A stretch of DNA of 39,020 nucleotides from Haloquadratum walsbyi J07HQW2 (GTDB lineage Archaea; Halobacteriota; Halobacteria; Halobacteriales; Haloferacaceae), in the NCBI RefSeq assembly GCF_000415985.1, contig NZ_KE356561.1:2806930-2845949 (forward strand), given 5' to 3'. Shown piece after piece: positions 32,291 to 38,840 of the stretch; the stretch's first letter is position 1; every line of letters begins with the position of its first letter. The translations under genes and the position numbers were made by a program. The notes below the pieces were generated by a model. It had not been told where the DNA came from. It ran no database searches and was given only the letters and a program-made list of their open reading frames with translations.

Positions 32291-33676
32291 TTATTCGTAG
32301 CTACCGAGGTCACACTCCGCTGAGGGACCAGCATCGCATGCATACCCAACATCATCTCGACTGGTGACGGTGACGACCTCGTAGTAGGTTCCTTCCGACT
32401 GATCACTCTCAGGCAGACCACGGACAACAGGTACATCTCGTTGTGCTTGATGATCGCACGCACGCATCAACTCCTTACCCATGCCAATATTGTTATATTC
32501 GTATCCTTCGAGTTGTTTGATTACTTCGACTGGATAGAACGTGCCAGCACGTTCAACCGCAGCAGCATATTGTAGTGTCTGCGCGTATGCCAACTGTGCA
32601 GCTCCTGATGGGATACGGTCGTATTCATTTTGAAAAGTTCTGGTGAATTCATTTGACGGTGCATTATCAATCTGTGCTGTCCATACGACTGTTCCAAAGA
32701 CATCCTCAATAGCCCCGCCCGCAGCCTGTGCCATTGGGCGGTTATATAGTGGAATCATAATTTCCATGTCCTCATCGAGACCGGCATCAACAGCTTGCTG
32801 GATTGAATTTGCACCATCAAGCCCGTAATGATTCAAAATAAGCACATCAGGGTTTTCGCTTGCGGCTCCTGAGAGATAATTTGAGAAGTCAGTTGTTCCC
32901 AGCGGTGTCGCCACGCTATCAATCTGTGACCATCCAGCGACATCTGTCATGAACCGCTCCATGGATGATTGTTGGGTTTGTCCCCAACTGTAATCGGCAT
33001 ATAACTGATAGAAATCGAGATCTGTTCCGTATTCGTCTCTGACAACCGGTGCAAGCGCCTGCCCAGTCATGTACGCGTTGAATTGTTCTTTAAACCCGTA
33101 TCGAACACAATCTTTTCCCGTTGTGTCATTCGAGTGCGCGAGACATGCCATGAACATTACATTCTCATTCTGACACAGTCCCTGAACAGCAATAGCTGCC
33201 GCAGAAGATGATCCACCACTCACCATCATAGCACCGTCGCGCTGGATCATTCGCGAAGCCGACTGTCGGGCCGTATCGGCGTCTGTTGCAGTGTCTCCAT
33301 CAACATAATCAATCGTGAAGTCAAGTACCCCGTCACCAGAGAGATCATCGAACTGTGAGTCAACCCAACCGCCGCCGTTATTTAGATGCTTGACAGCAAG
33401 TTCATATGCCCGAAGCTCATCCTGCCCCTCTGAGGCATACGGTCCTGATTGTGGGACATTAAATCCGAACGTTGCGGTGTCACCATCAATTGGGAAATTT
33501 CCGAGTGGGGGATACTCTTCGGTATCACTGCCAGTTGAGGCGTCATCAGATCCTGATTCACCACCACCATCACCACTGCCACCGGAGCATCCAGCAAGTC
33601 CAGCAATCCCGACAGTACCCGCACCCGCTACTTTCAATACATCACGCCGACGGAGAGAATCATCATCTCGCAGCAT
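32291..33676 (-). CDS. ABC importer substrate-binding lipoprotein, copy 1
   Basis: Extracytoplasmic binding protein of the HAAT (LivJ/K-like) type; 461 residues from ATG 33676 (an upstream frame would add 21 residues without a signal). Tat signal RRRDVLK at about 9-15, hydrophobic stretch, and lipobox LAGC with C30 as the lipid-modified residue. A Gly/Ser/Asp linker precedes the Leu/Ile/Val-binding fold: TATFGFNVPQSGPYASEGQD, the ligand-cleft region MMVSGGSSSAAAIAVQ, and NENVMFMACLAHSND. The end (GYACDAGPSAECDLGSYE) has two Cys. It is adjacent to livH and very similar to the copy upstream. Confidence 0.9.
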   Translation of the reverse strand: MLRDDDSLRRRDVLKVAGAGTVGIAGLAGCSGGSGDGGGESGSDDASTGSDTEEYPPLGNFPIDGDTATFGFNVPQSGPYASEGQDELRAYELAVKHLNNGGGWVDSQFDDLSGDGVLDFTIDYVDGDTATDADTARQSASRMIQRDGAMMVSGGSSSAAAIAVQGLCQNENVMFMACLAHSNDTTGKDCVRYGFKEQFNAYMTGQALAPVVRDEYGTDLDFYQLYADYSWGQTQQSSMERFMTDVAGWSQIDSVATPLGTTDFSNYLSGAASENPDVLILNHYGLDGANSIQQAVDAGLDEDMEIMIPLYNRPMAQAAGGAIEDVFGTVVWTAQIDNAPSNEFTRTFQNEYDRIPSGAAQLAYAQTLQYAAAVERAGTFYPVEVIKQLEGYEYNNIGMGKELMRACDHQAQRDVPVVRGLPESDQSEGTYYEVVTVTSRDDVGYACDAGPSAECDLGSYE

Positions 33677-33768
33677 GATATTTATGCGATGATATATCTT
33701 TGATAACTGCTTCGAATTACATATAATATTTAAAAACAATTATAAATATATCGCATTACGAGAACTAG
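33677..33768 (-). promoter_or_regulatory. AT-rich inter-copy region, probable promoter or processing site
   Basis: Ninety-two bases between the two binding-protein genes, strongly AT-rich (ATATAATATTTAAAAAC-like). It could hold a separate promoter for copy 1 and the permease genes, or an RNA-processing site that raises binding-protein messages over permease messages. No single TATA box can be chosen with confidence. Confidence 0.35.
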
Positions 33769-35166
33769 TTATTCGTAGCTACCGAGATCACACTCTGCTG
33801 ACGGACCAGCATCACACGCGTATCCAATATCTTCCCGACTTGTGATTGTAGCGATTTCATAGTAATTTCCTTCTGATTGGTCGCTCTCGGGCAGACCGCG
33901 GACAACAGGTACATCTCGTTGTGCCTGGTGATCGCACGCACGCATCAATTCCTCACCCATCCCAATATTATCATACTCGTACCCTTCGAGCTGATTGATC
34001 ACTTCGACTGGGTAGAACGTGCCGGCACGTTCAACCGCAGCAGCATACTGCAGTGTTTGTGCATATGCTAATTGGGCAACGCCTGATGGAATACGGTCAT
34101 ATTCGTTTTGGAAGGCTTGCGTGAATTCATTTGACGGTCCATTATCGATCTGTGCTGTCCATGCGACCGTTCCGAAGACATCCTCGATAGCACCGCCTGC
34201 AGCTTGTGCCATCGGACGATTATACACTGGTAACATAATTTCCATATCCTCATCGAGTCCAGCGTCAACGGCTTGCTGGACTGAATTTGCGCCATCGAGC
34301 CCGTAATGATTCAGAATAAGCACATCAGGGTTCTCGCTTGCGGCTCCTGAGAGATAATTCGAAAAGTCAGTCGTTCCCAGCGGTGTCGCCACACTGTCAA
34401 TCTGTGACCATCCAGCGACATCTGTCATGAACTGCTCCATCGATGACTGCTGAGTTTGTCCCCAGCTGTAATCGGCATACAGCTGATAAAAATCAAGATC
34501 TGTTCCGTATTCTTCTCTGACAACCGGCGCAAGCGCCTGTCCAGTCATGTACGCGTTGAACACTTCACGGAAACCATATCGAGCACAGTCCTTTCCAGTC
34601 GTGTCGTTTGAGTGTGTGAGACATGCCATAAACATTACATTCTCATTTTGACACAGTCCTTGAACGGCAATAGCCACCGCAGAGGATGACCCACCGCTCA
34701 CCATCACAGCACCGTCACGCTGGATCATTCGCGAAGCCGACTGTCGAGCCGTATCGGCGTCGGTTGCAGTATCCCCGTCAACATAATCAATCGTGAAGTC
34801 AAGGACCCCATCACCAGAGAGATCATCAAATCGTGAATCAACCCAGCCACCGCCGTTGTTTAAATGTTTGACAGCAAGTTCATATGCTCGCAGTTCGTCT
34901 TGTCCCTCTGAAGCATATGGTCCTGACTGTGGGACATTGAACCCGAATGTTGCGGTGTCACCATCAATTGGGAAATTTCCAAGTGAGGGATACTCCTCAG
35001 TATCGCTGCCACTTGAGGCGTCATCGGATCCTGATCCACCCCCACCGTCACCACCACCATCACTACCGCCACCGGAACACCCAGCGAGTCCGGCAATTCC
35101 AACAGTACCTGCACCTGCTACTTTCAATACATCACGCCGATGGAGAGAATCATTATCTCGCACCAT
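33769..35166 (-). CDS. ABC importer substrate-binding lipoprotein, copy 2
   Basis: A tandem paralogue of the adjacent binding protein; 465 residues. The signal has HRRDVLK (Tat) and lipobox LAGC (C30), followed by a longer Gly-rich linker than in copy 1. By eye about nine residues in ten are identical to copy 1 across the mature domain, with differences scattered (for example RDEYGT versus REEYGT, EIMIPLYNRP versus EIMLPVYNRP, GKELM versus GEELM). Most DNA differences fall at third codon positions, so both copies have been under protein-level selection since duplication. It is the first gene of the operon, and its promoter should lie in 35167-35398. Confidence 0.9.
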   Translation of the reverse strand: MVRDNDSLHRRDVLKVAGAGTVGIAGLAGCSGGGSDGGGDGGGGSGSDDASSGSDTEEYPSLGNFPIDGDTATFGFNVPQSGPYASEGQDELRAYELAVKHLNNGGGWVDSRFDDLSGDGVLDFTIDYVDGDTATDADTARQSASRMIQRDGAVMVSGGSSSAVAIAVQGLCQNENVMFMACLTHSNDTTGKDCARYGFREVFNAYMTGQALAPVVREEYGTDLDFYQLYADYSWGQTQQSSMEQFMTDVAGWSQIDSVATPLGTTDFSNYLSGAASENPDVLILNHYGLDGANSVQQAVDAGLDEDMEIMLPVYNRPMAQAAGGAIEDVFGTVAWTAQIDNGPSNEFTQAFQNEYDRIPSGVAQLAYAQTLQYAAAVERAGTFYPVEVINQLEGYEYDNIGMGEELMRACDHQAQRDVPVVRGLPESDQSEGNYYEIATITSREDIGYACDAGPSAECDLGSYE

Positions 35167-35398
35167 GATACTTATGCGAGGTTGTATCTTTAATAATTGT
35201 TTTGTCTAAATATGATGCGCACGTGTTAATATTTGTTAAAATAATTATAACGTATGGTTGTGTAATGATACCATTTTAGGTTGCCACTTTTTCTGGTAAT
35301 ACTATCTTGTATATGCCCAGTTTGAAAATGTGAAGTGCATAAATAATCAGAGTTTTTTGTCCACTGGACTGAAGTACCGGTCTATCGAACAGTCTTGT

Positions 35399-36151
35399 AT
35401 GGACATTCGTAATGCAGCTATTGAAGATATTGAGGCGATTCGCAGCGTGGCGCGTGAATCACTTGCCGCCTCATACGGACATGTAATTGATGATGAAACG
35501 ATTGATGCTGCAATCGAAGAGTGGTACAGCGAGGATGCGCTTGAAGAGACGCTCGTCGATGATGAATCGACTTTTGTCCTAGCTGTCGATGATGGTGGAC
35601 CGATTGGGTTTGCGCAAAGTGACTTGATTACCGGTCGTGAGGCAATCGGATACATCGATTGGCTTCATGTTGGACCGGATCATCGTGGTGTGGGTATCGG
35701 TTCACAACTTCTCTCTCGACTTCGACAGGCACTCATGAACGCCGGTGCAGATCGACTTGAGGGTCGTGTTCTAACCGAAAACGAAACTGGGCTTGGTTTC
35801 TATGAGGATCAGGGATTCAGCGTTGCTGGTAAGCGAACAGTCAGTATCAACGATGAAATATTCACCGAGCGCATATATTCATTATTCGTTGATTCAGCAG
35901 AAGAACCTGCAGCGAACAGACAGGAAACTGAAGCGGGTGACACAGTGTATATTGCATATGATGAGACTGTTCGTGGGTCAGAAGCCCCGTTTTTCGCCGC
36001 TTATCTTGATGAAGATCATGAAGAACGCTATGGGTGGTTCTGTGGTGCTGATGAAAGTCTTGATGTTGCAATGGATACAATGGAACGTATCGAATGTACC
36101 GCCTGTGGAAATCAACGTCGACCAGTCCGTTGGGACGCTGCATATCTATAA
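35399..36151 (+). CDS. GNAT N-acetyltransferase with C-terminal DUF5816-like domain
   Basis: A 250-residue protein from ATG 35399; upstream codons are not family-like. The N-terminal GNAT domain (about 1-155) has RNAAIEDIEAIRSVARESLA, IDWLHVGPDHRGVGIGSQLL (motif A with R-G-V-G-I-G, the acetyl-CoA pyrophosphate loop) and LGFYEDQGFSVAGKRTV. A linker rich in Glu and Ala leads to a second domain (about 175-250) reading TVYIAYDETVRGSEAPFFAA, RYGWFCGADES, and ECTACGNQRRPVRWDAAYL. This has a C-x2-C pair plus an extra Cys and resembles a haloarchaeal domain I recall as DUF5816. The acetylated substrate is unknown. Confidence 0.82.
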   Translation: MDIRNAAIEDIEAIRSVARESLAASYGHVIDDETIDAAIEEWYSEDALEETLVDDESTFVLAVDDGGPIGFAQSDLITGREAIGYIDWLHVGPDHRGVGIGSQLLSRLRQALMNAGADRLEGRVLTENETGLGFYEDQGFSVAGKRTVSINDEIFTERIYSLFVDSAEEPAANRQETEAGDTVYIAYDETVRGSEAPFFAAYLDEDHEERYGWFCGADESLDVAMDTMERIECTACGNQRRPVRWDAAYL

Positions 36152-37040: not shown

Positions 37041-37730
37041 ATGGATAGACGAGTATTCCTTGCGAGCACCGGTGCGACGATGGTCTCACTCACTGGGTGC
37101 ATCGGTGGAAATAATGAAACAGGCTCACCTGACGGTCCCACGGACTCAAGTAGTGGTCAATCAATCGATTCACATCCAGGAGCGACTAATCTCGCTGCAC
37201 AGCCACGGTTAGGAAATCTTGATGAATCTCAACATACGATTATTGCATTCAAAGATCCATCCTGCCCGCGATGTCGGGCATTCAAAGAATCAACCGTTCC
37301 AGAGATCCAACGCCAACTCATCAATCCGAATATAGGGGCATACGTGCTTCGTAATTATCCTGTCGTTTATCCATGGGGAAAGCCCGCAACACAGGCGTTG
37401 GAAGCAACGCTTGATCGGTCAGAAACTGCTCATTGGAAGTTACAGAATTACTATTATGATATGCAAGACGACTTCTCAACTGAGAATGTGCAGATGAAAA
37501 CACGAACATTTCTTGAATCAAACACCGAAGTCACTGCAGATGCTGTAATTAATGATGTTGACTCAGATGCATACAGCAATGCTGTCACAGCAGATATTAA
37601 TGCCGCTGAAGAAGCTGGTCTCGGCGGGACAACACCATCAATTCTACTTTTTAACGATGGACAGTATGTGACGAAAGCAACCGGAAGCATCAGTTATGAC
37701 GTCATTGCAACAGCGCTTGGAGAAAAATAA
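37041..37730 (+). CDS. DsbA-like thioredoxin-fold lipoprotein
   Basis: An extracytoplasmic thiol-redox protein; 229 residues. The N-terminus is a signal with RR and lipobox LTGC (C20), so the protein is lipid-anchored outside the cell. A Ser/Gly/Asp linker (about 21-55) precedes the thioredoxin-like strand HTIIAFKDPSCPRCRAFKES, with the redox pair C75-P-R-C78. A helical insertion (about 115-175, AHWKLQNYYYDMQDDFSTEN) is typical of DsbA and DsbG-like proteins. The cis-Pro motif GTTPSILLFNDGQ is in place. It is followed after two bases by a membrane protein with its own CxxC, strongly suggesting a donor-acceptor pair. Confidence 0.85.
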   Translation: MDRRVFLASTGATMVSLTGCIGGNNETGSPDGPTDSSSGQSIDSHPGATNLAAQPRLGNLDESQHTIIAFKDPSCPRCRAFKESTVPEIQRQLINPNIGAYVLRNYPVVYPWGKPATQALEATLDRSETAHWKLQNYYYDMQDDFSTENVQMKTRTFLESNTEVTADAVINDVDSDAYSNAVTADINAAEEAGLGGTTPSILLFNDGQYVTKATGSISYDVIATALGEK

Positions 37731-37732
37731 CA

Positions 37733-38344
37733 ATGAGTGTCAAAGGGTTTCAATCTATTCAGACACGCCTTCCAACGACTCGAGAAGACTGGCATCTCAT
37801 GGGACGAACAATTCGACTTGTGCTTACAATCCCACTGTACACGATTGCTGCTATTATCGCAGCAGTCACAGCACTTACCGTATTTGTCATGTCACTCAAT
37901 GTGCAATTAGTCAGTGATCTTATTATCGGTGGGGCACTCCCCCCAACTGACCGACTGACGGTCCTTGTTGAGCTATATCCATTTATTGGAACATCTTTCG
38001 GACCGTTGAGTGGAGTTTTATTACTCATTGTCTCAATACTGACAGGCGTCAACGTCGCAATGGCAGGATACCACGTTCGTGAACATGAGCTAACAGTCGC
38101 CGGTGGAGGTGCGAGTATGCTTGGTGTCGTGTTCGGAACACTTGGCGCTGGATGTGCTGCATGTGGATCTGCAGTGTTACTCAGCGTGCTTGGATTATTC
38201 GGTATTTCAACGTCATTATTATTCTTACCCCTTGATGGATTGGAGTTCGCACTACTCGCACTCGTCGTAATCACTCTATCGATCCATTGGCTTGCAGATG
38301 GAATGCGTGGTGGAATGGTCAATGGATGCCCAGTCGACATTTAA
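37733..38344 (+). CDS. Membrane protein with intramembrane CxxC, probable redox partner
   Basis: A 203-residue integral membrane protein of no family I can name. Helices: about 27-55 (IRLVLTIPLYTIAAIIAAVT), 90-113 (GPLSGVLLLIVSILTGVNVA), 124-160 with C141-A-A-C144 in GTLGAGCAACGSAVLLSVLG, and 162-190 (LLFLPLDGLEFALLALVVI). A lone Cys lies near the end (C199). The CxxC lies in a Gly-rich helix, reminiscent of the Cys pairs of DsbB/CcdA-type electron carriers or of MerT-like metal carriers, but neither family fits in detail. Because its start follows the DsbA-like stop by two bases, a shared thiol-redox job is likely. Confidence 0.75.
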   Translation: MSVKGFQSIQTRLPTTREDWHLMGRTIRLVLTIPLYTIAAIIAAVTALTVFVMSLNVQLVSDLIIGGALPPTDRLTVLVELYPFIGTSFGPLSGVLLLIVSILTGVNVAMAGYHVREHELTVAGGGASMLGVVFGTLGAGCAACGSAVLLSVLGLFGISTSLLFLPLDGLEFALLALVVITLSIHWLADGMRGGMVNGCPVDI

Positions 38345-38840
38345 TCTAATCTGTCGAATCTAGATTAAATCACAGTAAGGTATGACCGCCCAGACTTGAC
38401 ACTACAATAGATATCTAGGACAACATATTTCAATAATTACCTCATACGCGTGTGGAACCTGATATAATTATTAATATTATGAGACAAAATACATGTTAGA
38501 GACCGGAAGAGGTCAATCATAAGACTGTGGAAAAAGCGGCGAGAAGATACACCGCTTTGTGATGGTAGCGTAGTAGTGGTAGTTCCCCTATGACCAGGGG
38601 GAAAGGTCGAGCGGGAATCGAACCCACACACCGACACTTACTCATCAGTGGTACCCATGATATCGACCCACACGAAACACTAAATGATAAGATCGTCTCA
38701 GTAATTAATATTATGCCAGACTGCACTGAATTTGATTTGTTTCAGTATATTACACATTTATCTGGGTATGAGATGCAGCACACGACATAGGTCGGGGTCA
38801 GGATAGCTATCTCTGACGATGAGTTTAGCTAGCCGATTTC
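38345..38840. other. Spacer with tRNA-like remnant and hairpin
   Basis: About 500 bases between the CxxC membrane protein and the leftward gene at the right edge. It holds the tRNA-like sequence at 38604-38669 and, next to it, a hairpin TTCCCCT (38583-38589) / AGGGGGAA (38596-38603) with one bulge. Short reading frames in the stretch overlap these structures and do not look coding. Confidence 0.5.
38604..38669 (-). other. tRNA-like remnant without anticodon arm
   Basis: On the minus strand, GGGTCGA (38669-38663) pairs with TCGACCT (38610-38604) as a seven-base acceptor stem with one G-U pair. A perfect T arm GTGGG-TTCGATT-CCCGC abuts the 3' strand. A short D-like arm (TCA-TGGGTACCAC-TGA) follows the 5' strand. 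What lies between (about 17 bases) is too short for an anticodon arm plus variable loop. This is either a decayed tRNA or the attachment-site half of one left by an integrated element. Confidence 0.45.

Follow-up and report, generated by a model that had tools for sequence, protein, structure and literature searches.

Do a DsbA-like lipoprotein and the membrane protein encoded directly behind it in Haloquadratum walsbyi J07HQW2 exchange thiols, and if so, in which direction would the electrons run? We addressed this question for two adjacent genes in a window of 39,020 nucleotides (the whole stretch of DNA analyzed, from contig NZ_KE356561.1). A DsbA-like protein with a membrane thiol partner is an already known kind of pairing, and among the open-access papers searched we did not find any describing this particular one. 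The known routes for thiol electrons through the cell membrane are few, and the pair would add another if our reading is right. It would then explain how thiols are managed on the outside of cells without recognisable DsbB, VKOR or DsbD, the host being an example; as a small genetic module, it is testable in culturable Haloarcula strains.

The gene pair and its DsbA-like member

The upstream gene, P1 (37041–37730, plus strand), encodes 229 amino acids, and the downstream gene, P2 (37733–38344, plus strand), encodes 203. The gap between them is of 2 bases (37731–37732), confirming to the base the spacing and common strand given by the first-pass annotation. Overlaps of 1–4 bases between the corresponding genes were frequent in relatives, as expected for an operon.

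P1 had been described as a lipid-anchored DsbA-like protein with C75-P-R-C78 and a cis-Pro loop, and this description held in every respect. The protein has a lipobox (LTGC20), the loop G-T-T198-P199-S, and a match to PF13462 (Thioredoxin_4; E=6e-15, 56.2 bits against a curated cut-off of 23.2). Its best PDB sequence match is Bacillus subtilis BdbD (3eu3, E=2e-8), and BdbD is also the best PDB fold for its AF2 model (pLDDT 89.5; E=1e-10), followed by DsbA proteins and ScsC. With a profile match above the cut-off and a thioredoxin fold carrying both CxxC and the cis-Pro loop, P1 belongs to the DsbA/BdbD type. Among 34 partners of family A (the close haloarchaeal relatives of P2, see below), C75, C78, R104, T198, P199 and G215 are invariant, and the residues between the two cysteines vary (CPRC, CPTC, CSRC, CERC and others). 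P1 shares with BdbD the fold, the CxxC and the Thr-cisPro; it differs in being a lipoprotein and in being paired with a membrane protein outside the DsbB family, to which BdbC, the partner of BdbD, belongs.

The first-pass annotation held that neighbours changing in most genomes would argue against a redox pair. A search with P2 alone retrieved 43 relatives, and the P1-like gene is kept at all 43 loci, directly upstream on the same strand in 41 of them; at L022 (Haladaptatus) and L034 it lies near the P2 homologue on the opposite strand. The pairing is real and not a product of chance. The distance matrices of P1 and P2 correlated with r=0.84 (permutation maximum 0.41), a value that shared ancestry alone could produce. 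No third conserved neighbour gene was found in the haloarchaeal loci beyond close relatives. DsbB and VKOR were also considered as alternative neighbours of P1-like genes and rejected: only one of 48 haloarchaeal DsbB/VKOR loci (the DsbB locus L164) had a clear DsbA-like neighbour, suggesting that DsbA-like adjacency is special to the P2 family. Two loci show possible decay, with a broken family-A reading frame at L040 (6001–6563) and a P1 partner carrying CPSS in place of CxxC at L036 (5276–5917).

A membrane protein of unnamed family

P2 has exactly three cysteines, as read earlier from its letters: the pair C141-A-A-C144 (38153–38164, plus strand), in predicted TM3 and inside the family signature GxGCxxCG, and C199 (38327–38329, plus strand), just after TM4. 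Homologues lacking the pair, regarded beforehand as evidence against a redox function, did not appear: G138, G140, C141, A142, C144, G145, P166, G169 and C199 are invariant in 41 family-A homologues, and G105, C141, C144 and G145 in 24 diverse members. C199 is invariant in the alignments of family A and of the more distant family B, and conserved at 90% or more in alignment A4. The alignment signature of P2 reads LGAGCAACG...LPLDGLEF...GCP, from which all branches of the family keep GCxxCG, LPxxG and the tail Cys. Nearly all members space the three cysteines at 0, +3 and +48 to +58, and most have just these three.

The suspicion that P2 fits no named family was borne out. P2 alone had no match in Pfam or NCBIfam, scans of 41 and 24 relatives gave nothing worth noting, and no PDB sequence matched the family; the plasmid annotation in public records labels relatives “hypothetical protein”. 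The AF2 model (pLDDT 74.7) spans the membrane with four long helices, of which TM3, the CxxC-bearing one, is modelled at low confidence. With this model, Foldseek gave no hit with E<0.5, and no VIA-align score exceeded Z 5.4; these absences prove little given the uncertain TM3. As regards a DsbB-like four-helix fold, the model has four TMs, with no confident PDB match. Topology was instead approached through the bacterial members, which are not acidic halophile proteins. These average 3.3 Lys plus Arg in loop 2, 3.3 in the tail and 0.4 in loop 3, a positive-inside pattern that would place loop 2, the tail and both termini inside, with C199 predicted to be cytosolic and the CxxC within TM3.

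Like DsbB and BdbC, P2 is predicted to have four TM helices and is the membrane partner of a DsbA-like protein; it differs from DsbB in having its CxxC in TM3 and an extra, predicted cytosolic Cys, in lacking a second extracytoplasmic Cys pair, and in lacking a profile match (no PF02600 when A1 and A4 members were scanned against Pfam). With VKOR it shares a CxxC inside a TM helix and a DsbA-type partner, and its three cysteines differ from the set of four conserved Cys plus Ser/Thr of that family (PF07884; PMC4555120). By hhalign, the P2 family reached a probability below 1% with DsbB, 0.1–0.5% with VKOR and at most 2.7% with CcdA/DsbD_TM (PF02683), the last two also without Pfam match; the test is blunt, as VKOR against DsbB itself gives only 7.8%. 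CcdA has six TMs, with a single Cys in TM1 and in TM4, unlike P2 with its four TMs, one CxxC in TM3 and one tail Cys.

P2 might instead serve P1, or a substrate common to both, as anchor in the membrane, as chaperone or as assembly factor, with purely structural cysteines; such a role would suit two plasmid copies (L049 and L051) that have no annotated DsbA-like gene adjacent, and the L036 partner that has lost one active-site Cys. We regard it as very improbable, given that no part of the family is better conserved than the CxxC, even between distant members, and that P1 is already lipid-anchored by itself.

We then surveyed 391 haloarchaeal genomes, with membership of family A set at E<1e-20. 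Family A was found in 95 and family B in 104 genomes, and one or the other in 181 (about 46%). Family B is a distant haloarchaeal branch with GCASCG, LPFxG and the tail Cys, whose copies adjoin DsbA-like genes matching PF13462. Relatives were also found in 11 of 145 genomes, mostly of 0.5–1.4 Mb, from a bacterial phylum reached via L042; there, a DsbA-like gene lies directly upstream of eight copies and directly downstream of one. Profile-profile comparison joined family A, family B and the bacterial set with a probability of 98–99.9%. The P2 family appears to be a new membrane family, found in archaea and bacteria. Of the earlier proposal of a haloarchaeal system, the presence in haloarchaea stands and the restriction to them falls, since relatives sit beside DsbA-like genes in small-genome bacteria as well.

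Several observations were made around these loci. Beside family-B loci, an HTH regulator recurs at nine and a DUF7521 membrane protein at eight, and superoxide dismutase is encoded near four pairs (L087, L097, L098 and L125; by eye). Three bacterial proteins of about 500 amino acids (L110 550–2199, L111 448–1956 and L114 529–2028) combine a GxxCPVCG membrane domain with a C-terminal CCxNSTxFxDCNHG domain, and at L110 and L114 a Cys-rich protein of 198–199 amino acids without Pfam match adjoins this fusion. At L103 (2096–3277) and L108 (2025–3215), a second DsbA-like protein (CEAC) directly behind the pair has a His/Cys-rich C-terminal domain, HEHADF...HLHDGNGDVTHKH.

Possible direction of electron flow

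Thiol exchange between P1 and P2, in one direction or the other, is likely. As to direction, we tentatively favour a reductive one, in which P2 may be a dedicated transmembrane relay carrying electrons outward to P1, in the manner of CcdA or ScsB. Electrons would come from cytosolic thioredoxin and enter P2 through the tail Cys, the TM3 CxxC, or both; at the outer face, the TM3 CxxC and the CxxC of P1 would exchange a disulfide, and P2 would thereby reduce P1. Reduced P1 could then reduce or isomerise disulfides in exported proteins, or keep their metal-binding cysteines reduced. What P2 would share with CcdA, DsbD and ScsB is this proposed role, the passage of cytosolic electrons to an outer thioredoxin-fold protein, here performed with a DsbA-like partner by a protein from a different family, with four TMs and three cysteines. 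On the same footing, P2 could be the founder of a new class of transmembrane thiol relay, a possibility we put forward with reserve: the class would be unrelated to DsbB, VKOR and CcdA and comprise at least three branches (haloarchaeal A, haloarchaeal B and small-genome bacteria). Every branch would have a DsbA-like protein of its own as partner, with a link to copper handling in the bacterial one.

The lean towards reduction comes from the third Cys, predicted cytosolic, from thioredoxin or thioredoxin reductase genes near some copies, and from coexistence with DsbB or VKOR. A thioredoxin of cytosolic type (WCGPC, no signal peptide seen) is encoded close to the pair in four family-B loci of four genera, and a thioredoxin-reductase-like gene lies 4 bases behind one bacterial P2-family gene (L109). 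Thioredoxin genes are near a minority of the pairs, and are adjacent to no family-A locus. A lone cytosolic Cys is also an unusual entry point for electrons and counts against the reductive relay, as does the low AF2 confidence of TM3, by which the model does not fix how deep or on which side the CxxC lies.

The opposite direction would make P2 a quinone-linked oxidase of P1, functionally analogous to DsbB or VKOR, passing electrons from P1 via the TM3 CxxC to menaquinone while P1 makes disulfides in exported proteins. We did not find any DsbB, VKOR or DsbD_TM match in the host genome, which nevertheless holds two further DsbA-like lipoprotein genes besides P1. The lack of DsbB and VKOR matches, together with the closeness of P1 to BdbD, an oxidase, speaks for this direction and against the reductive relay; the lack of a DsbD_TM match also suits the relay. 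The distribution across genomes pointed both ways, avoidance of DsbB or VKOR towards the oxidase and coexistence with them towards reduction. Among the 13 genomes of the host genus, three have family A, eight have DsbB and none has both (Fisher p=0.035; uncorrected for phylogeny). In the 391 haloarchaeal genomes, family A avoids VKOR (2 genomes with both, 19.4 expected) and family B avoids DsbB (20 against 43.6), but family A and DsbB occur together more often than expected (53 against 39.8), all these figures being uncorrected for shared ancestry. Neither DsbB nor VKOR was found in 89 of the 181 genomes with A or B; VKOR is present, however, in 7 of the 11 bacterial genomes with the P2 family. 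A clean replacement of DsbB/VKOR is ruled out as a general rule by the 53 genomes with A and DsbB and by these seven with VKOR, and the same coexistence suggests that the P2 family is not simply another copy of an oxidase. In many genomes of the genus g29 (e.g., G083, G102, G169 and G270), family A and DsbB lie about 9–29 kb apart on the same contig.

The architecture of P2 also speaks against the oxidase, as it lacks a second extracytoplasmic Cys pair and its third Cys is predicted to be cytosolic. A single pair could nonetheless suffice, since the haloarchaeal VKORs that we sampled mostly have just one membrane CxxC (L127–L146; they show the membrane CPFC but lack the two loop cysteines of classical VKOR). 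Overall we consider an oxidase unlikely, though well worth keeping in view.

Metal genes beside the bacterial relatives, and other features of the window

The bacterial members of the family are found amid metal genes, in neighbourhoods listed here raw, uncorrected for a background rate: a multicopper oxidase, a cupredoxin-like gene and Nramp; P-ATPases carrying, or lying with, heavy-metal domains (L181, L186 and L187); a metal-sensing repressor, FUR, ZIP, DUF302 and DUF305; and, in four loci, a BlaI-type repressor with an M56 peptidase. The copper surroundings fit an Scs-like thiol system serving copper proteins, or direct metal transport. ScsC pairs with ScsB, a DsbD-type protein. Like P1, ScsC is DsbA-like, and it is among the fold matches of P1. 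It is described as trimeric (PMC5524982, PMC8900818), and for the Caulobacter protein the affinity for Cu(I) is subpicomolar (PMC8900818).

Direct transport would have P2 move a soft metal, copper or perhaps one like Hg, over the membrane by its Cys ligands, with P1 handling metal or thiols on the outside. MerT and MerC, both small proteins of the membrane, have two paired cysteines within a TM and another one facing the cytosol. P2 resembles them in size and in its TM pair and predicted cytosolic Cys, a relay that suits metal hand-over, and the Cu(I)-binding ScsC lends P1 a precedent. On the other hand, the partner of P2 is DsbA-like and not an HMA protein of MerP type, Pfam scans of P2 family members gave no MerT or MerC match, and no metal gene is conserved beside the haloarchaeal copies. 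P1 moreover retains a full redox site (C75, C78 and T198-P199), beyond the needs of a metal carrier. We hold metal transport to be improbable.

Elsewhere in the window, a stretch on the minus strand at about 38600–38640 resembles the 3' half of a tRNA (GGTCGAGCGGGAATCGAACCC); ARAGORN finds no tRNA there. Upstream of the pair, 35330–36151 (plus strand) encodes a fusion of a GNAT acetyltransferase with DUF5816. Two tandem genes on the minus strand (32291–33739 and 33769–35166) encode substrate-binding lipoproteins (Peripla_BP_6) that are 92% identical over 453 amino acids, suggesting a recent duplication.
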